Source: Methylococcus sp. Mc7 | GTDB lineage: Bacteria > Pseudomonadota > Gammaproteobacteria > Methylococcales > Methylococcaceae | Assembly: GCF_019285515.1 (NCBI RefSeq) | Contig: NZ_CP079095.1 | Coordinates: 620,001-684,000, forward strand | Direction: 5' to 3' | DNA: 64,000 bases | Part shown: positions 50,387-64,000 of the stretch, piece by piece | Numbering within the stretch: the first letter of the stretch is position 1 | Layout of the letters: each line of letters begins with the position of its first letter | Notes under the pieces: model-generated | What the model saw: only the letters and a program-made list of their open reading frames with translations | The model's database searches: none | Told to the model about the DNA's origin: nothing | Made by a program: the position numbers and the translations under genes

Positions 50387-50468
50387 GATTTTCGGGGAGT
50401 GACTCAGGTTTTGAGGCAGTGGGGTCGGTAAGATGGTTCGCACACGGACTTCGGGAGGTAGAAACACC

Positions 50469-52778
50469 ATGCGGAACGACGATCGTTACGCGCACAGCGC
50501 GAACCGGGCGGGAATTCGCCACCGGCTGCGTGATCATTTGTCGAGCGTCAGTCGGCTTGCCGGCGAGTTCGCTGGAAGCGAGCCCTGGGCGGACGAGGCG
50601 CGCCTGGCTGGGCTGTTGCACGATTTGGGAAAGTACGGGGACCGGTTTCAAGCACGATTGCGTGGCGAGGACCAAGGCTTGGATCACTGGTCCCAAGGCG
50701 CCTGGTTGGCTCTCACCGAACACAAGGCCGTCGCGGCAGCACTGGCCATACAAGGGCATCACATCGGCCTGCAATATCTCAGTAAAAACGGCTGCGGGGG
50801 GCTAGACCTGCAAAAACTCACCCAGAACCACCCACTGCAACTATCGCTCAGCAGCAACAGCCTGGACGAATTGAAATCCCTGCTCGCCGCCGACGGCCTG
50901 ATGGCGGCTCAACCGCGAAGCACAGTCTGCGGAATGGAACTGTCCAGCCGCATCGACCGCATGCTGGACATCCGCATGCTGTTCTCGGCGCTGGTGGACG
51001 CCGATTTTCTGGATACCGAGGCGCATTTCGAAGGTGACCAGGGGGGCAAACGCTACCGGCCGCCGGGGCTTGAACTGCAACCGGAACGCGCCTTGCCGCT
51101 GCTTCTCGCCGAAATCGAGCGGCTTCAAGCCAGGACCCGAGCCGATGCACGGGTGGCCGGCGTACGGTCGAGCCTGCATCGGGCTTGTCTCGATGCGGCG
51201 GAATTGCCGAAGGGTCTTTATACGCTCACCGCCCCCACGGGCAGCGGCAAAACGCTGGCGATGCTGGCTTTCGCGCTGAAACACGCGAAACGACAGGGCT
51301 TGCGGCGAGTCATCATGATCATCCCTTATCTCTCCATCATCGAGCAGACGGCCCGAATCTACCGGGATATTTTCGCGCCCCATTTTGGCGATTCCTATGT
51401 GCTGGAGCATCACTCGCTGGCCGGAGGAGGTCCGGAACGAAATCGAACCGACAACGAAGGCGAGCGGACCGAAGACCCCGAACGCCGACGGCGCTTACTG
51501 GCGGAAAACTGGGATGCGCCGTTGATCGTGACGACCAGCGTGCAGATGCTGGAGTCGCTGTTTTCCAATCGGCCTTCTGCCTGCCGGAAACTGCACCGTC
51601 TGGCCCGCTCGGTCATCCTGTTCGATGAAGTGCAGACCTTGCCCGCCAGTCTCGCCGTGCCGACCCTGTCCGCGCTTTCCCATCTGGCGGAGGCCCATGG
51701 TTCCACGGTCGTGTTTTCGACAGCCACCCAACCGGCCTTCACCCATCTGCATGAAGCGGTTAAACAACACTGCGCCGGAGGCTGGCAGCCCCGAGAAATC
51801 GTCCCGCAGCCGGCCTCGTTGTTCACGCCGTTGAAACGGATAACGGTGGATTGGGGCGATCCCGACCAAGCTCTACCCTGGCAAACCCTTGCCGAGCGAC
51901 TGGTCCAGCATCCGCAATCCCTGTGCATCGTCAATCTCAAGCGACATGCAAAAGAGCTGTGGGCGTTGCTGCAAGAAACGGATGCCCTGCATCTTTCCAC
52001 CAACCTCTGCCCGGAACATCGCCGAGAAGTGCTTTCGACCGTCCGCCAGCGGCTCGAACAGGGAGAACCCATCCGCCTCATCGCGACCCAATGTATCGAA
52101 GCCGGCGTGGATGTGGATTTCCCCGTGGTTTATCGAGCCTATGCGCCGCTCGATGCCATCATCCAGGCCGCGGGGCGTTGCAATCGGGAGGGCAAACGAA
52201 AGGAACTGGGGCGAGTCTGCGTGTTTCTGCCCGAAGACGAGCGTTATCCACCCAGCGGCGGTTACGAGCAGGCGGCCAAGGTCACTCAAATGTTGCTCAA
52301 GCGTTTCGGCAAGGACCGCATGGCCATCGACGAGCCCGCTTTCATCACCGCCTATTACCGGGAACTGTACGACATCGGCCGACCGGAAGCGGCCAAGAAA
52401 ACCCGGGAGCTTTTGGATTTCGTTCGGGCGGGAGCCTTTCCCGAAATCGCGAAAGAATATCGACTGATCGAGCAGGACACGATCAACGTCGTCGTGCCTT
52501 ATGCACCCAGTTCGGATTTGTTCGACGAGTTGCGGGACATGGCCGATGCAGAAGGACTGAACGCCCGCTGGATCAAGAAAGCCCGCCCGCTATCCATCAG
52601 CCTGTTCCGCCCCAAGCGAGACGACGACCCGGTTTGGGATGGCCTGATCCCGGTGATGAGCAAGTGGCAGCGCGGTAGGAAGAGTCAGGAAGACTGGTTC
52701 ATTGCGGCAGTTCCCGAGCATTACCACCCGGCGCTGGGTTACCAGCCACCGACGGGGTTGAATCTATGGATAGCCTGA
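50469..52778 (+). CDS. cas3: CRISPR-associated nuclease/helicase Cas3, type I-C
   Basis: 769 residues. The N-terminal HD domain has GLLHDLGKYGDRF (H51, D52). The SF2 helicase has Walker A TAPTGSGKTLA (about 255-265), motif II FDEVQTLP (about 386) with DEVQ in place of DEAD/DEVH, motif III VFSTATQP and motif VI QAAGRCNREGK. Cas3 is recruited by Cascade to unwind and degrade target DNA. The start at MRNDDRYAHS has GGGAGGT upstream. It is intact. Confidence 0.95.
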   Translation: MRNDDRYAHSANRAGIRHRLRDHLSSVSRLAGEFAGSEPWADEARLAGLLHDLGKYGDRFQARLRGEDQGLDHWSQGAWLALTEHKAVAAALAIQGHHIGLQYLSKNGCGGLDLQKLTQNHPLQLSLSSNSLDELKSLLAADGLMAAQPRSTVCGMELSSRIDRMLDIRMLFSALVDADFLDTEAHFEGDQGGKRYRPPGLELQPERALPLLLAEIERLQARTRADARVAGVRSSLHRACLDAAELPKGLYTLTAPTGSGKTLAMLAFALKHAKRQGLRRVIMIIPYLSIIEQTARIYRDIFAPHFGDSYVLEHHSLAGGGPERNRTDNEGERTEDPERRRRLLAENWDAPLIVTTSVQMLESLFSNRPSACRKLHRLARSVILFDEVQTLPASLAVPTLSALSHLAEAHGSTVVFSTATQPAFTHLHEAVKQHCAGGWQPREIVPQPASLFTPLKRITVDWGDPDQALPWQTLAERLVQHPQSLCIVNLKRHAKELWALLQETDALHLSTNLCPEHRREVLSTVRQRLEQGEPIRLIATQCIEAGVDVDFPVVYRAYAPLDAIIQAAGRCNREGKRKELGRVCVFLPEDERYPPSGGYEQAAKVTQMLLKRFGKDRMAIDEPAFITAYYRELYDIGRPEAAKKTRELLDFVRAGAFPEIAKEYRLIEQDTINVVVPYAPSSDLFDELRDMADAEGLNARWIKKARPLSISLFRPKRDDDPVWDGLIPVMSKWQRGRKSQEDWFIAAVPEHYHPALGYQPPTGLNLWIA

Positions 52779-52788
52779 GGGCGCCTCA

Positions 52789-53065
52789 ATGATGAGAAGG
52801 CCAGAGCCTGGGATCGCGCGAAGTATGCAGCACGGCGACTACGGTCACCCGTTCGGACTGGGTGAAGTAAAACACGCCGTAAGGAAAGCGGGGCAGCAAC
52901 GCGCGGCGTGCGTCGCGAAAAAGCGGAGCGCAAAAAAGGTGTATCCGCGATCCGATGCAACACCGTTTCCAAGGCCGCGAGGAAATCCGCCCCCAAGCCC
53001 GGAGACTGGCGTTCGTACCAGCGAAACGCCTCCGCGATGTGCCGCTTTGCGCTGGCACGGATGAT
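52789..53065 (-). pseudogene. ParE/RelE-type toxin, frameshifted
   Basis: The N-terminal part reads IIRASAKRHIAEAFRWYER and DFLAALETVLHRIADTPFL; the C-terminal part, in another frame, reads FRDARRALLPRFPYGVFYF then VVAVLHTSRDPRLW. The frame change lies around 52905-52925 in a run of T/G. Together they make a normal roughly 90-residue ParE toxin; no standard start codon is in frame. It lies on the strand opposite to the cas genes. Confidence 0.7.
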
Positions 53066-53074
53066 CAGTATGAC

Positions 53075-53242
53075 TCATCGCCCTGCCAAAATATCGGCCT
53101 TCACTTGCGCCCAAGACTCGCCGCCTTCGGGGTCGGCGCTACATTCTTCCAGGCAGGTGTCCAATTCGCGGCGTTGCCAATCGGTCAGCGGAACAGCCTC
53201 GGCGTCCTTGGCGATACTGTTCCAAAGATCCTCAACTATCAC
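53075..53242 (-). pseudogene. Addiction-module antitoxin remnant (ParE partner)
   Basis: The frame IVEDLWNSIAKDAEAVPLTD followed by WQRRELDTCLEECSADPEGG and SWAQVKADILAGR matches the C-terminal part of the TIGR02574-like antitoxins that pair with ParE toxins. The usual N-terminal helix with ATG is missing; only GTG starts are available. The stop lies 10 bp before the toxin remnant. Confidence 0.6.
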
Positions 53243-53336
53243 GGAGAACACAATATAACGATGGGATCGGGGGAAGATCGGACAAGGAAATGGACTTCAT
53301 CGTGATACGCCTCAGAGACTTTGGAAGTATTGGAGG

Positions 53337-53356
53337 GCAGGGGCGTAAGCCCCTGC
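53337..53356 (-). ncRNA. Hairpin following the truncated CRISPR repeat
   Basis: GCAGGGGC and GCCCCTGC form a perfect 8-bp stem with a 4-nt loop. On the minus strand it comes 22 nt after the partial repeat at 53379-53394 and could end a small RNA. There is no T-tract after it. Confidence 0.35.
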
Positions 53357-53378
53357 AAGTAAGCGTGACAGCGTCAGA

Positions 53379-53394
53379 GTTTCAATCCACTCCC
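53379..53394 (-). repeat. Solitary truncated CRISPR repeat (16 nt)
   Basis: On the minus strand GGGAGTGGATTGAAAC is identical to the 3' 16 nt of the array repeat, the part that becomes the crRNA 5' handle. The rest of the repeat, including the long stem, is absent; a weak CCAA/TTGG stem precedes it. It lies 9 kb from the array, in the gap between cas3 and cas5, in the opposite orientation. A degenerate-repeat regulatory RNA or an array relic would both fit. Confidence 0.6.
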
Positions 53395-53579
53395 CAATCG
53401 GACTTGGTAGTAGCGGAGGCGGCAAGCGCGGACGCATTTTCAGATGCCAAGTTCGAGGAGGAGGCTGAAATTCTATCCTTGTGGTTAGCGAGAGTCTACC
53501 TAACAGCTTCAGAAACAGTTTACAGTAAAAAGGCTATGACGTACGATCTTCCCGTCTCTACTGTCCAGAGGTCTTGTCG

Positions 53580-53696
53580 ATGGAGTATTGGAAGAGCCTG
53601 CGCGAACTTCGGCTGCTATTCATAAATCTGCCTACGGTTCGCTTTTATGCGCTCATCTTGGCAGCTTGTGCGATTGTCTATCTGTTTCGGCATTGA
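53580..53696 (+). CDS. Possible 38-aa membrane peptide
   Basis: A short frame MEYWKSLRELRLLFINLPTV ending YLFRH with one hydrophobic segment (FYALILAACAIVYLF). It lies 73 bp upstream of cas5 on the same strand. Support is limited to hydrophobic pattern and position; no family known. Confidence 0.3.
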   Translation: MEYWKSLRELRLLFINLPTVRFYALILAACAIVYLFRH

Positions 53697-53768
53697 GCGT
53701 CATTGAGATCAGCTGGAGCGGTGCGGAAACACTGCTCCAGTAATACCCCTCAAATAAGGAGAAACACT

Positions 53769-54509
53769 ATGCGAGGCAAAACCCATTGCCTGGAAGTCTG
53801 GGGCGATTTCGCCTGCTTTACCCGACCGGAGATGAAGGTCGAGCGTTACAGCTACCCGATCATCACTCCCTCCGCCGCGCGGGGCATCTTCGATGCGATC
53901 TATTGGAAGAAGTCTTACGGGTTTTACTGGCAGGTGGAAAAGGTCGAAATGCTCAAACTTCCCAGCTACATTGCCCTGCGCCGCAATGAGGTGAAGGACA
54001 AGGCGCCTGGCGACAACGTCATCCTGCGCTGGAAAGACGGTAGGGCAGAGCCAGAGCCCTTGTGGGCCGACGGCGACCGCGAGCAGTCGGGAACCGACCA
54101 GAAGGGCCGCACCCAGCGCCAGACCATGGCGTTAAAAGATGTACATTACCGCATCCATGCCCACCTGCGCTTTCGTGACAACGGACAGGATGCGCGCACC
54201 TTCGACGCCCAATTCGAACGTCGCGCCGGCGGTGGGCAATGCTACTACCAGCCGTTTTTCGGTTGCCGGGAGTTCCCCGCCTTTTTCGCCTTGGCCGACA
54301 CCGAAAGGCCTGGCCCCGAGCCGGTCCGGCTCGACCTCGACTTGGGGCTCATGCTCTACGACGTGTTCGATCTCAGCCAGCACAACGACAACCATGCGCT
54401 GCCGAGCATCAGCGTGTTTCAAGCCCAGTTGCGCAAGGGTGTGATGGAAATACCCGGTTATGACGATCCCGCCGTCAGGAAAGCGGTGGAGGAGAACATC
54501 CATGCTTGA
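53769..54509 (+). CDS. cas5c: CRISPR-associated protein Cas5c (crRNA-processing)
   Basis: 246 residues. The start MRGKTHCLEVWGDFACFTRP, then YPIITPSAARGIFDAIYWKK, is diagnostic for Cas5d/Cas5c. RTQRQTMALKDVHYRIHAHL carries the Lys-His typical of the endonuclease site. In type I-C this protein replaces Cas6, cutting the pre-crRNA at the repeat stem and staying on the handle. RBS AAGGAG. The stop overlaps cas8c by 8 bp. Confidence 0.93.
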   Translation: MRGKTHCLEVWGDFACFTRPEMKVERYSYPIITPSAARGIFDAIYWKKSYGFYWQVEKVEMLKLPSYIALRRNEVKDKAPGDNVILRWKDGRAEPEPLWADGDREQSGTDQKGRTQRQTMALKDVHYRIHAHLRFRDNGQDARTFDAQFERRAGGGQCYYQPFFGCREFPAFFALADTERPGPEPVRLDLDLGLMLYDVFDLSQHNDNHALPSISVFQAQLRKGVMEIPGYDDPAVRKAVEENIHA

Positions 54510-56244
54510 CGCCATTCTCAAACAGGCCGGCGCGTCCGAACCCGGCTTCACCCGCAAGACCGTCAAATGGGCCATCACCTGTACTCGGGACGGACGTTAC
54601 ACCGGCGTCGTACCGCTGGCTGAGGACAAGGGCCAGACGTTTGACTGCTGTCCCAATCTGAGCCAGCCCGAGCTGGTGGGCGGCGATGGCGCCCGCTCGC
54701 ATTTTTTGTCCGAAGGCTTGCCTACCGTCGCCTTGTTCTGGAAGGAGGACCTCGACGACAAGGAGCAAGAAAAATTCCGCGCCAAACATGCCTATTTTCG
54801 CGGGCTGCTGGAACAGGCGGCGGAAGTCGCGCTATACCTCAAGGCCGCTGCCGCCCTGCTGAACGACGAATCCACAATGAATGAGGTGCGGGCCGACTTG
54901 GTCCGACAAAGAGCCAAGCCCACTGAAGCCGCCTGCTTCCGCATCGATGGCCTAAACCCGCTGGAGCAAACCGATTGGCACGACTGGTGGCGCGACTTCC
55001 GTGGCAGGCTGAAAGCGCCGAAAGCCAAAGCCGCCACCAAAATGCGTTGCGTGCTGACCGGCGAAGTCGTCGAACCCATGCCGACCCATCCCAAGATCAA
55101 GGGACTTGCGGGCGTCGGCGGTTTGGGCACCGGCGACGTGCTGGCCGGCTTCGACAAGCAGGCATTTCAATCCTTCGGACTGGAGCAGGCTGCCAATGCG
55201 GCGATGTCCGAGGAAACCGCCACCGCATATGCCGAGACCCTTAACCGATTGATTTCTGAGAAAAGTATCAAGCTGGGCAACGTGCTCTCGGTGTACTGGT
55301 TCGATCAAAACATCCCACTCGATGACGATCCGTTGTCTTGGCTGAAGGAGCCGGAAGAGCAAGCCGCCGCCGGAGCCGAACTCAAAGCCAAAAAACTCTT
55401 GCAAGCCATCCGCAGCGGCCAACGACCGGACTTGAGTAATAACGTTTACTACTCCCTGTTGTTGTCAGGAGCGGCGGGCCGGGTGATGGTGCGCGAGGTC
55501 ATGCACGGTTCATTTGAAACGCTGGCGACCAACACCGAACACTGGTTCTCGCACCTGGCCATAGTGGCACGAGACGGGAAAACTCAAGCGCCTACGCCCA
55601 AATTCCTCGCCGTGGCCGGGAGTTTGGTGCGCGATTTGAAAGACCTGCCCGCGCTCATGGTGCAGCACCTCTGGCGAGCCGCCATCACCGGCGGCGATAT
55701 TCCCTGTGCCGCCTTGGCCCAAGCCACGTTACGCGCGCGTATCGATGTCATCAACGACGACCCGGCTTCCCATGCCCGCATGGGACTCATCAAAGCCTAC
55801 CACCTGAGAAAAGGAGACTCCGACATGCAAGCTCATGTAAACCCCGAACATCCCAATCCCGCATATCACTGCGGCCGACTCCTCGCGGTACTGGCCCGGT
55901 TGCAACGCGCGGCGCTGGGCGATGTCGGCGCGGGTGTGGTGCAGCGTTATTACACTGCCGCCAGCCAGACTCCCGGCTTGGTGATTGGCCGCCTCGCCGC
56001 CAATGCCAAGAACCATTTGAACAAGCTGGAGGGTGGCTTGGCGTACTGGTACGAAAACCAGATCGCCGACGTGATGGCGGCCATGAACGACATACCCGGC
56101 ATTCTCACGCTGGAACAACAAAGCCTCTTCGCCCTCGGCTATTACCAGCAGCTCGCCGCTCTCAACGCGGGCAACAAAGACAAGCCCAACGAGCCTGAGA
56201 AAAAAGCCGGTCCCCAACCCGACCTGTTCGCGGCCAATTCCTAA
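54502..56244 (+). CDS. cas8c: CRISPR-associated protein Cas8c (Csd1), Cascade large subunit
   Basis: 580 residues from [19 protein letters not shown]. Csd1 features include [37 protein letters not shown] and [20 protein letters not shown]. It recognises the PAM and recruits Cas3; an internal start near its 3' end can give a small subunit (Cas11c) in I-C systems, which I did not map. Gap of 29 bp to cas7c. Confidence 0.93.
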
Positions 56245-56273: not shown

Positions 56274-57251
56274 ATGGCCATTGAAAACCGCTACGAATTC
56301 CTGTTCCTGTTCGACTGCGAAAACGGCAATCCCAACGGCGATCCGGACGCCGGCAATGCGCCGCGCATCGACCCCGAAGACATGCACGGTCTGGTGTCCG
56401 ACGTGGCTTTGAAGCGCAGGGTGCGTAACTACGTCCAGATCGCTAGGGACAACCAAATGCCCAACGCCATCTTCGTCGAGCACGCCAGCAACCTGAATCG
56501 GCCGATTGTCCGTGCTCACGAGGAAACCGGCGGGGTGCCGGAAAAAGGCGCCTCCAAATCCAAGGTCAGAGCTGCGCGGGATTGGATGTGCCAGAACTTC
56601 TACGACGTGCGCAGCTTCGGCGCGGTGATGAGCACCGGCCCCAACGCTGGCCAAGTGCGCGGCCCGGTGCAATTTGCCTTCGCCCGTTCGCTGGCCCCCG
56701 TCCTACCGTTGGATATTTCCATCACCCGCATGGCGGTGGCGGAGGACGTGAAAGGCGCCAAAAGCTCGGCGGATTTCCAAAAATGGGAAGATGAACAACC
56801 CGAGGACAAGTTGCGCACCATGGGCCGCAAGAACCTGATTCCCTATGGCCTCTACGCCGCCAAGGGTTTCATCAGCGCCAACCTGGCCCAGGAAACCGGC
56901 TTCGGCGAAGACGATCTCGCCCTGTTTTGGGAAGCGCTGGCCAACATGTACGACCACGACCGTTCCGCCAGCAAGGGCATGATGTCGTGCCGTGGCCTTT
57001 ATGTATTCAAGCATGTGGGCACCGATAGTAACGAGGAACAGCGCCGGCGGCAGGCCAAACTCGGCTGCGCGCCGGCGCATCGCCTGCTCGATTACGCCTG
57101 TGGCGCGGATGACAAGGAGCAAGCAATCATTGAAATCCACAAGCTGGAATCGCCGCCCCGCAGTTTCGGTCATTACCAGGTCAATGCATTCCCAGAGCGG
57201 CTACCGGCTGGAATCGAACTTTGGACCTGGGGCAACAATGGGCTAACATAA
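56274..57251 (+). CDS. cas7c: CRISPR-associated protein Cas7c (Csd2), backbone subunit
   Basis: 325 residues, start [20 protein letters not shown] then [20 protein letters not shown], the classic Cas7/Csd2 opening. [20 protein letters not shown] and [16 protein letters not shown] are also typical. Several copies coat the crRNA spacer. The C-terminus ends [25 protein letters not shown] precedes the ATG. It is the last intact interference gene before the insertion zone. Confidence 0.94.
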
Positions 57252-57693: not shown

Positions 57694-59383
57694 CCTGAAT
57701 CCGTGTTCCCCTCGGCTTACACCTTCCCATCGAGCCTGAACGCATGAATTTCGAGCGCTCTCCCTTGGGATTTGCCCTCGCTACCGGCGATCCGGGGAAC
57801 GTTCGACCGGGGTTTCGGGGCCAATCTGCTTGGCGTGCGCTTATCGTCAGCTCATTTTCCGCTCCATGCGCGAGACTGTCCCTTCCGGGGTTCCGGAATC
57901 AGGGATTCGAGGCGTGCGGCAGGCATTTCCCGTCATCCGGACGCCGCCGCCCACAGCCGATTCTGAAGCATCACGAACACGGCTACGTTTGCCGCCACGC
58001 CACGGCCGAAATCGAGGATCAGCCGGCGGGCATGGGCGACGAACTTCGCCGCCCGGTACATGATCTCCTGTAGCACGGTCCGGATGCGGCGGCGCTTGGC
58101 CGGATGACGGATCGGCGCAATCTCGCCGGTCAGGCCGATCTGTCCCAAGAGACGCAGGCAGTTGTAGGCGAAGGCCGCCAGATGCAGGATCACGTCGTTG
58201 GTGTCGAACTTGCCCGAGGGCAGCCGCTCCAGATCGAGGTCGGTCTTGAACTCGGAGTGGAACTGCTCATGCATGCCGTGGTGCTGGTAGAGTTCGATCA
58301 CTTCCTCGGCGGAACAGGAGAGCGTCGTCCACCAGCCTTCCAGTTCGACCTCCGGGGCCAGCAGGTGTTGGCCCTTCTTGTCGATGGTGCGCTCGGTCAC
58401 CTGGGCGACCAGGCGGAAGGAGCGCTTCTCCTTGTGCCAGGCGCGTTCCACTTCCAACGACAGCAACGCAACCCGCTTGCCTGGACGAGCCTCGGCAAAG
58501 GCGCCCGCCTCCTCGGCGCGCTTGACCCAGTCCCCCTTGTCCTGCTTGCGGGGGTTCCACTTGCAGATGAAGTCGAGGCTTCGCCCCAGCGCGGCTTGCC
58601 GGTCTCGCTCCGCGGCCTTGGCGAACAGAAGCTGTGCGCCGTCGAAACCGCTGTCCTCGCGCAGCAGCACGGGCTGATCCGGTTTGACCAGGCGTTCGAT
58701 GCGCGGAAACAGCCGCTCGTAGAAGTAGTGCGTCTCGAACGCCGAGTGGCGGGACCCTGGCCTCAGTTCCAGCCCGGTGTTCCAGCCTTCGTTGCCGAGA
58801 TAGGCGGCAATCGGCGTGTAACCGTCGAAGCCCTGATAGGTGCGCGACACCGCTTCCTTCTTCGTGCCACTATTGTCCATGGCGAAGGTATCGATGTCGC
58901 AGCAGACATAGCCCTTGTGCGGCGTGATCGGCGCCTCGGTTCGCTCCAGCAGCCTCAGGGAAAGCTCATCGGCCAGATCGCGGATGGCTTCCGCCTTGGC
59001 ATTCAGACGCTGGCGCAGCCACACGGCTCCGGGCACCTTCGTCAGCCCCAGCGACTCCTTGAAGAAGCGATCATTCCGGAATGGCTCGATGGCTTCGAAG
59101 TCGCTCTTGCCCAGACTCAACAGCCCGACCACGCTCTTGACGATGTCCGAGGTACGCATGCCTTGCGACACCGGGATCTTCGGGTCAATGACCGCCTCCA
59201 CCTGCGCCGCCTGGCAGCACTGGCCAATCAGCGCCAGGCCGGAATACGAGGTCAGTTGCAGCTTGCTGGATTGCTTGACTTCAAAGCGCGGCATGATCAA
59301 ATGGGTGACATCGAAAATGGGCTAATTATACAATGGATTCAATATGTTATGAATTATTTAGAGGGTGGGAGCACGGATTCAGG
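57694..59383. mobile_element. IS1380-family insertion sequence, complete
   Basis: A 1690-bp element bounded by 17-bp inverted repeats: CCTGAATCCGTGTTCCC at 57694-57710 and its complement with one mismatch at 59367-59383. AAAAG flanks both ends (57689-57693 and 59384-59388) as a 5-bp target duplication. It carries one transposase gene on the minus strand. The intact repeats and duplication indicate a fairly recent insertion. Confidence 0.88.
57933..59294 (-). CDS. IS1380-family transposase
   Basis: 453 residues from MPRFEVKQSSKLQL. DDE-type regions are YVCCDIDTFAMDNSGTKKEA, VLLREDSGFDGAQL and MHEQFHSEFKTDLDLERLPS (Glu). The C-terminal part has FAYNCLRLLGQIGL. The frame is unbroken and catalytic regions intact, so the element may be active. 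It reads against the cas genes. Confidence 0.9.
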   Translation of the reverse strand: MPRFEVKQSSKLQLTSYSGLALIGQCCQAAQVEAVIDPKIPVSQGMRTSDIVKSVVGLLSLGKSDFEAIEPFRNDRFFKESLGLTKVPGAVWLRQRLNAKAEAIRDLADELSLRLLERTEAPITPHKGYVCCDIDTFAMDNSGTKKEAVSRTYQGFDGYTPIAAYLGNEGWNTGLELRPGSRHSAFETHYFYERLFPRIERLVKPDQPVLLREDSGFDGAQLLFAKAAERDRQAALGRSLDFICKWNPRKQDKGDWVKRAEEAGAFAEARPGKRVALLSLEVERAWHKEKRSFRLVAQVTERTIDKKGQHLLAPEVELEGWWTTLSCSAEEVIELYQHHGMHEQFHSEFKTDLDLERLPSGKFDTNDVILHLAAFAYNCLRLLGQIGLTGEIAPIRHPAKRRRIRTVLQEIMYRAAKFVAHARRLILDFGRGVAANVAVFVMLQNRLWAAASG

Positions 59384-62487: not shown

Positions 62488-64000
62488 TATCTCCCGGCTC
62501 AATAGCCGGGAGTGGATTGAAACCTGCAGGTGGTGCATGATGTAGCCGATCCAGTTGTATCTCCCGGCTCAATAGCCGGGAGTGGATTGAAACCGCGTGC
62601 GGCATGGTTCGATACTGCGAATCGCAGTTATCTCCCGGCTCAATAGCCGGGAGTGGATTGAAACTTGGCGATTGGTGCAGCCGTTCGGATAGATCGGCGT
62701 ATCTCCCGGCTCAATAGCCGGGAGTGGATTGAAACGCATTTGCCGGGACAACCACAGGGCATCCATCGCGCTATCTCCCGGCTCAATAGCCGGGAGTGGA
62801 TTGAAACACGTGTTGAACGAGAAAAAAACCTGCGCGAATTGTATCTCCCGGCTCAATAGCCGGGAGTGGATTGAAACTATGAATTTAGGCGTTATTAGGC
62901 CTATCAAGCGCATATCTCCCGGCTCAATAGCCGGGAGTGGATTGAAACTCGGTGATCGCGGACACATCGGTGTAGTAGACCGTTATCTCCCGGCTCAATA
63001 GCCGGGAGTGGATTGAAACTGGCGTGGTCGGCATCGTAAGGCAGGTCGGCGATGCGTATCTCCCGGCTCAATAGCCGGGAGTGGATTGAAACTAGTCGGT
63101 ACCGCGAGTGAGATAGGCGCCCGAGTCTATCTCCCGGCTCAATAGCCGGGAGTGGATTGAAACATTACCAAGGTGGATTTTATGGTCGGGCTGCCAGCTA
63201 TCTCCCGGCTCAATAGCCGGGAGTGGATTGAAACAACCGGATGCCAAGCTCATCGCAAGCGTCACGCCTTATCTCCCGGCTCAATAGCCGGGAGTGGATT
63301 GAAACACCGTCGATCTGAACTCGAAATGGAAAAACGTCGTGTATCTCCCGGCTCAATAGCCGGGAGTGGATTGAAACTTGCTCATTCAGCCATTCCTCCC
63401 AGGCGTTCAACGTATCTCCCGGCTCAATAGCCGGGAGTGGATTGAAACATTACTAAGAAATGGCTTGAACAGACTGGTGCTTGTATCTCCCGGCTCAATA
63501 GCCGGGAGTGGATTGAAACTCTAGCCGACGGACCGCGTTGGCCAGGTCCGCCAGTATCTCCCGGCTCAATAGCCGGGAGTGGATTGAAACCTGGGATATC
63601 AGGATATCGCTCGCCAGTTTCACGGTATCTCCCGGCTCAATAGCCGGGAGTGGATTGAAACTTCGAGGATGTGATCATCCATGATCGTGGCCACGGGTAT
63701 CTCCCGGCTCAATAGCCGGGAGTGGATTGAAACATGGCGCGCTGACCCTGATCAACGCCAGTGGCGCGTATCTCCCGGCTCAATAGCCGGGAGTGGATTG
63801 AAACTGAATCTGGTTGTAGACGTCGCCGTACCCGGCGGAGTATCTCCCGGCTCAATAGCCGGGAGTGGATTGAAACCCACGTGAAAGACAGCGATTCACC
63901 GGACAGGTGAGTATCTCCCGGCTCAATAGCCGGGAGTGGATTGAAACTTGGCGTACGCCGCATCGATCCGGCCCGCGGATTCGTATCTCCCGGCTCAATA
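62488..64000 (+). CRISPR. Type I-C CRISPR array, 21 complete repeats, continuing past the window
   Basis: The 36-nt repeat starts TATCTCCCGGCTC and ends GTGGATTGAAAC. Its inner CTCCCGGCT/AGCCGGGAG arms form a 9-bp stem with a CAAT loop. I count 21 identical full copies (first 62488-62523, last 63912-63947) and a 17-nt partial copy at 63984-64000, with 21 spacers of 34-37 nt. The base before each repeat is G in 15 of 22 cases, so tools may call a 37-nt repeat. The ATTGAAAC end and gene order give plus-strand transcription from the leader next to cas2. Confidence 0.98.

Follow-up and report, generated by a model that had tools for sequence, protein, structure and literature searches.

We analysed a 64-kb stretch of the Methylococcus sp. 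Mc7 chromosome (hereafter the window), and our analysis suggests that a CreTA-like module probably lies between the cas3 and cas5 genes of its CRISPR (clustered regularly interspaced short palindromic repeats) locus. The locus is type I-C, judging by curated models that identify cas3, cas5c, cas8c, cas7, cas4 and cas1. In this module, a CreA-like RNA would guide Cascade to silence a small toxic protein. It is very probable that the guide acts at a site at 53503-53513, and there is a good chance that the protein, 38 amino acids (aa) long, is a toxin. An earlier reading of the letters (the original prediction) had proposed a CreA/CreR-like RNA in this gap. Its core idea finds strong support: the element is conserved, its seed has a target with a fitting protospacer-adjacent motif (PAM), and other I-C loci show a like design. 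However, the target that it placed just before cas5 gives way to the better one at 53503-53513. Because this better target precedes the promoter of a small open reading frame (ORF), the reading shifts from CreR towards the CreA of a toxin-antitoxin module.

The proposed mechanism is as follows. A minus-strand gene at about 53414-53337 would make a CRISPR RNA-like transcript composed of a degenerate repeat whose handle is perfect, followed by 22 nt of guide and a hairpin at the 3' end, and Cas5c and the rest of the I-C Cascade would load it. Seed positions 1-5 and 7-11 match 53513-53503 beside a GTT PAM, where the complex would bind; by analogy with known CreA, such a short match should permit binding without Cas3 cleavage. 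Bound Cascade would block the adjoining predicted promoter (53519-53547) of the 38-aa protein. When Cascade is lost or inhibited, the protein would be made and would harm the cell, so that the cell would stay dependent on its CRISPR effector.

Proposed guide gene, target and small ORF

The handle GGGAGTGGATTGAAAC is found on the minus strand at 53379-53394 (plus-strand letters GTTTCAATCCACTCCC). It stands alone, as had been claimed, and is the sole copy in the window outside the array. A search of the window with up to two mismatches gave 22 matches against 0.03 expected by chance, 21 of them in the array, and the remaining copies found in the 4.0-Mb genome are all in the single array. The 22-nt guide (53357-53378) and the 8-bp hairpin (53337-53356) were also recovered as first described, the hairpin by RNA folding of 53414-53334; the same fold shows a degenerate repeat stem containing the CCAA/TTGG pairs proposed as a mini-stem. 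Thus, a degenerate repeat and a spacer-like guide stand within a cas locus, as in CreTA modules, which have one or two such repeats. The hairpin is likely the 3' end of the guide RNA, replacing a second repeat. No T run follows it as an intrinsic terminator would require, and an Rfam search gave no match. A plus-strand 111-aa frame crossing the element (53290-53625) matched no Pfam family. An exact-pattern scan of genome contigs for handle plus seed was discarded: its three matches were all ordinary array spacers.

Every site in the window was scored for its match to seed positions 1-5 and 7-11 of the guide, ten in all; in type I Cascade, position 6 is flipped out. The sole non-self site matching at 10/10 is on the minus strand at 53513-53503 (TCTGAAGCTGT against the guide TCTGACGCTGT). 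In a relative from another genus (G018), the best non-self site in the locus is the homologous target, which matches at 9/10 with extra pairing at positions 13-16. Shuffled guides equal these gap scores with P 0.0006 for the window, 0.012 for G018 and 5e-5 for both together. The sequence TGACGCT, offered in the original prediction as a supporting match, does recur at 53696-53702, but it was rejected as the target because it mismatches the guide at positions 1-2 and is not conserved in G018. The cas3 start region has no seed site of at least 9/10, so a target in the cas3 promoter was rejected as well.

On its PAM side, the target has GTT in the window and GTC in G018. These differ from TTC, the usual type I-C PAM (PMC8406640), and therefore the PAM was inferred from spacers of relatives. 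Spacers of G018 and of G005, the nearest relative by Cas5c, were matched to same-family genomes with up to 9 mismatches (n=13), the target itself not being used. The resulting PAMs were GTC (4), GTT (2), GTG (2) and CTT, TTC, GCT, AGC and CCA (1 each), with T at -2 in 10/13, although some of the weaker matches may be chance. This suggests a GTY-like preference, instead of TTC, in these two I-C relatives (arrays L102, L103 and L104). Phage records searched for the same inference gave no match. The guide is partly complementary to the predicted promoter region of a candidate toxin beside a fitting PAM, as is the case in CreTA.

The candidate promoter begins 3 bp past the PAM and precedes the 38-aa ORF. 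The ORF product is 70% identical to its G018 counterpart, and synonymous differences far exceed nonsynonymous ones (pS 0.69, pN 0.17), by which measure purifying selection acts on the ORF. Like many small type I toxins, the peptide contains a single hydrophobic segment. No Pfam or NCBIfam model matched the ORF. Order-level (matches with E > 0.005 treated as noise), phylum-level and targeted searches placed the ORF family in four genomes: that of the window, G018, G015 (partial) and G549. Viral contigs and plasmids searched with the ORF, and plasmids searched with the DNA of the cas3-cas5 gap, returned nothing.

Conservation in relatives and at other type I-C loci

Cas5c homologs in 80 relatives served as the comparison set. 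G018, whose Cas5c is 80% identical, has the same 16-mer with its orientation kept, at 371-386 bp upstream of cas5, compared with 375-390 bp in the window. Twenty-seven consecutive bases (ACAGCGTCAGA + GTTTCAATCCACTCCC) are identical between the two amid intergenic DNA much of which has diverged, so the guide seed is conserved as well as the handle. The 5' repeat part (53395-53414) is not conserved in sequence. The conservation of the 16-mer that the original prediction proposed to look for in related I-C loci is thus borne out in G018, where the handle and an 11-nt seed are kept. G005 (Cas5c 89% identical) has neither the element nor the ORF, and its array has about 180 repeats. Array repeats of both relatives are near-identical to those of the window.

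G015 has kept cas3 and has no cas5 or Csd1 in a genome that is 99% complete. It retains a relic in which the hairpin, guide and 16-mer are fused by a deletion to the second (C-terminal) half of the small ORF, so the promoter, the target and the N-terminus of the ORF are gone. Cascade loss together with a broken ORF is the outcome predicted by addiction, though this is one case. The number of cases is small, but their distribution is the one expected of CreTA: intact modules in G000, G018 and G549 precede cas5c, and the broken one is in the Cascade-less G015. Separately, a palindromic element, GTGGAGTGCGGCGACTCGTCGCCGC..., lies in G015 beside the broken module (L038, about 1728-1860) and beside a leftover array repeat on another contig (L058). 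The Cascade genes may have been lost through this element.

We also surveyed 51 I-C-type cas5 loci for solitary handles upstream of cas5, allowing up to two mismatches. For all of the intergenic solitary handles (9/9, window included), the best local match was reached by shuffled guides with P <= 0.013, whereas seven other handle-like matches had P 0.28-0.89. The PAM was not used in the score; nevertheless, a TTC PAM was found in 7/7 surveyed cases outside the window's family. A stem-loop 3' of the guide was present in 10/10 units folded. L091, from G549 in another order, has the window's full layout, namely a minus-strand guide gene with a 3' hairpin, a TTC target, an ORF and cas5, and its ORF (MEWMVGFLRELRLLLTELPPDRFYVLCALALAVTFVWWFR) is a homolog of the 38-aa ORF. 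L093 (about 1215-1370) and L097 (about 1197-1349), both with cas5 on the plus strand, have in common a second family of small transmembrane ORFs (GVQ..N.KGKV..FWG). Here a strong TTGACA-TATACT promoter of the ORF overlaps the target of a two-repeat guide gene located after the ORF, and both guides start with TGTCAGTTAGTAAT. L087 (1389), L088 (1386) and L019 (1412), also with cas5 on the plus strand, carry solitary degenerate repeats directly upstream of cas5. Their guides match their own promoter regions with a TTC PAM and no sizeable ORF lies between, and from this arrangement they are likely type I-C CreR units. In L094 (927-1321, cas5 on the plus strand), the target of a minus-strand guide unit has a TTC PAM and precedes a TTGACA-18-TATACT promoter, and an unrelated frame of at least 60 aa comes before cas5.

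We give roughly even chances to a broader proposal, that I-C systems widely carry Cascade-guided promoter switches, each built from one degenerate repeat, a short guide and either a 3' hairpin or another repeat. Such switches would, in several lineages, guard conserved families of toxic peptides with a single transmembrane segment (LRELRLL..LP..RFY and GVQ..N.KGKV..FWG), the pairs following each lineage's PAM, and the window promoter would release toxin and new Cascade together.

Alternative explanations and known systems

Several observations weigh against a CreTA-like module. The predicted promoter at 53519-53547 is weak (9/12), the pairing covers just 11-13 nt and is placed upstream of the -35 box, G005 retains Cascade without the module, and of the roughly 1,200 genomes covered by one search or another, just four have the ORF family. 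Furthermore, no promoter or terminator was found between the 38-aa ORF and cas5; therefore cas5-cas8-cas7 may share 53519-53547, and read-through from the small ORF, the first gene after the target promoter, into cas5 is possible. Because of this possible sharing, the main rival is CreR-like autorepression, in which the guide RNA leads Cascade to a promoter that chiefly feeds cas5-cas8-cas7, Cascade limits its own synthesis, and the ORF is a co-expressed passenger or leader. The failure to find a promoter or terminator just before cas5 favours it, as do the CreR-like units without a sizeable ORF at L087, L088 and L019, and CreR is known in I-B, I-E and V-A (PMC13131331). However, the first gene past the promoter encodes a conserved small transmembrane protein under purifying selection, which a plain CreR does not need. 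Moreover, G005 has neither ORF nor element, and the Cascade-less G015 has only a broken ORF. Autorepression is possible but rather unlikely in our view.

It is highly improbable that the element is a relic, that is, a decayed old array end or a stray repeat without function whose target match arose by chance. The degenerate 5' part and the single repeat of the unit would fit such decay, but a run of 27 bases that contains the seed has been kept between genera as its surroundings diverged, and a local target occurs in all nine such units and in none of the seven chance handles. Less probable still is a decoy of the viral Racr kind, a repeat RNA by which Cascade would be titrated or inhibited. 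In its favour, Racrs are solitary repeats encoded in viral genomes (PMC10651486). Against it, this element is chromosomal and lies within a cas locus, its place is the same in different genera, and it is paired with a matching local promoter target.

For the CreTA-like module, the closest proven system is the type I-E CreTA of Citrobacter rodentium, which the window resembles in every feature testable here. The C. rodentium module lies between cas3 and casA with its guide gene on the opposite strand, its target covers an UP element upstream of the promoter and adjoins a PAM, and its 96-bp ORF is toxic by translation (PMC12055562). Likewise, the window element is located between cas3 and the Cascade genes, its guide gene is upstream of the ORF on the opposite strand, its target is upstream of the -35 box beside a PAM, and a short ORF is the candidate toxin. 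Unlike C. rodentium CreTA, it belongs to a I-C system, a 3' hairpin follows its guide, its toxin is a candidate only, and homology of the 38-aa protein is recognised only within its own small family. In H. hubeiense, pairing between CreA and its target is confined to positions 1-5 and 7-11 (PMC8501985), and the window guide shows the same partial seed pairing with a PAM, upstream of the candidate toxin gene. A single repeat is shared with H. hispanica CreA. In contrast to the CreTA modules of these two species, the candidate toxin is a conserved protein.

The CreR units of I-B, I-E and V-A systems (PMC12737573, PMC13131331) are also solitary repeat units in cas loci with limited promoter complementarity; in the window, by contrast, the target promoter is followed first by a conserved small transmembrane ORF and not by a cas gene. 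CrePA is similar in that an RNA antitoxin guides a CRISPR effector to silence a protein toxin gene (a candidate one here). CreP is described as typically having a KilA-N domain and acting on FtsZ (PMC12737573), whereas the window ORF encodes a 38-aa transmembrane peptide without a KilA-N domain in Pfam or NCBIfam.

CreTA has been described for I-B, I-E and I-F, and CreR for I-B, I-E and V-A, in the papers searched. No type I-C CreTA or CreR was found in the literature searched, though the original CreR/CrePA papers might hold a I-C prediction. CreTA modules reportedly show little conservation and are difficult to detect by homology (PMC8501985). The candidate toxin described here is conserved across genera and in one other order, which opens it to homology searches and to a simple test by induction. 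With the eight further I-C loci for which the survey predicts guide-target pairs, addiction to Cascade and autoregulation in I-C become open to direct testing.

The surrounding cas locus

Coordinates are collected in Table 1.

Table 1. Features of the cas locus and the cas3-cas5 gap (window coordinates)
Feature	Position	Strand	Basis or remark
cas3	50433..52778	+	TIGR01587, TIGR01596
3' hairpin, 8 bp, GCAGGGGCTTACGCCCCTGC	53337..53356	-	RNA fold
Guide, 22 nt, TCTGACGCTGTCACGCTTACTT	53357..53378	-	first 11 nt identical in G018
Handle, 16 nt, GGGAGTGGATTGAAAC	53379..53394	-	identical to array repeat; kept in G018 and G015 relic
Diverged 5' part of solitary repeat, with CCAA/TTGG mini-stem	53395..53414	-	sequence and fold of 53414-53334
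Candidate guide-RNA promoter, TAGACT-17-TAGAAT	53470..53498	-	consensus scan only
Guide-seed target, TCTGAAGCTGT	53503..53513	-	mismatch at position 6 only
Target PAM side, GTT	53514..53516	-	fits GTY-like PAM inferred from relatives' spacers
Candidate sigma-70-like promoter, TTTACA-17-TACGAT	53519..53547	+	homologous TTGACG-17-TACAGT in G018
38-aa single-transmembrane ORF, candidate toxin, MEYWKSLRELRLLFINLPTVRFYALILAACAIVYLFRH	53580..53696	+	conserved in G018 and G549; part in G015
cas5c	53769..54509	+	TIGR01876
cas8c/csd1	54502..56244	+	TIGR01863; start picked by eye, open frame from 54460
cas7/csd2	56274..57251	+	TIGR02589
CRISPR array, repeat TATCTCCCGGCTCAATAGCCGGGAGTGGATTGAAAC	62488..64000	+	extends past window end

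A transposase-like gene, assigned by eye, is located on the minus strand at 57933-59300 between cas7 and cas4/cas1, so the adaptation genes are separated from the effector operon. Downstream of cas3, the minus strand at 52786-53251 carries an apparently frameshifted remnant of a type II toxin-antitoxin system (a PF09720 antitoxin fragment and a ParE-like fragment), parts of which are kept at the same place in G005 and G018. In the window array (62488-64000) and in L101-L104, nearly all spacers end in G, with T, C or A in some of the window's, a pattern that a 37-nt repeat or selection on spacer ends would produce. Two spacers of the window array (L101), ATTACCAAGGTGGATTTTATGG... and TTACCAAGGTGGATTTGATGG..., are nearly identical but shifted by one base, which would fit a double sampling of related protospacers.
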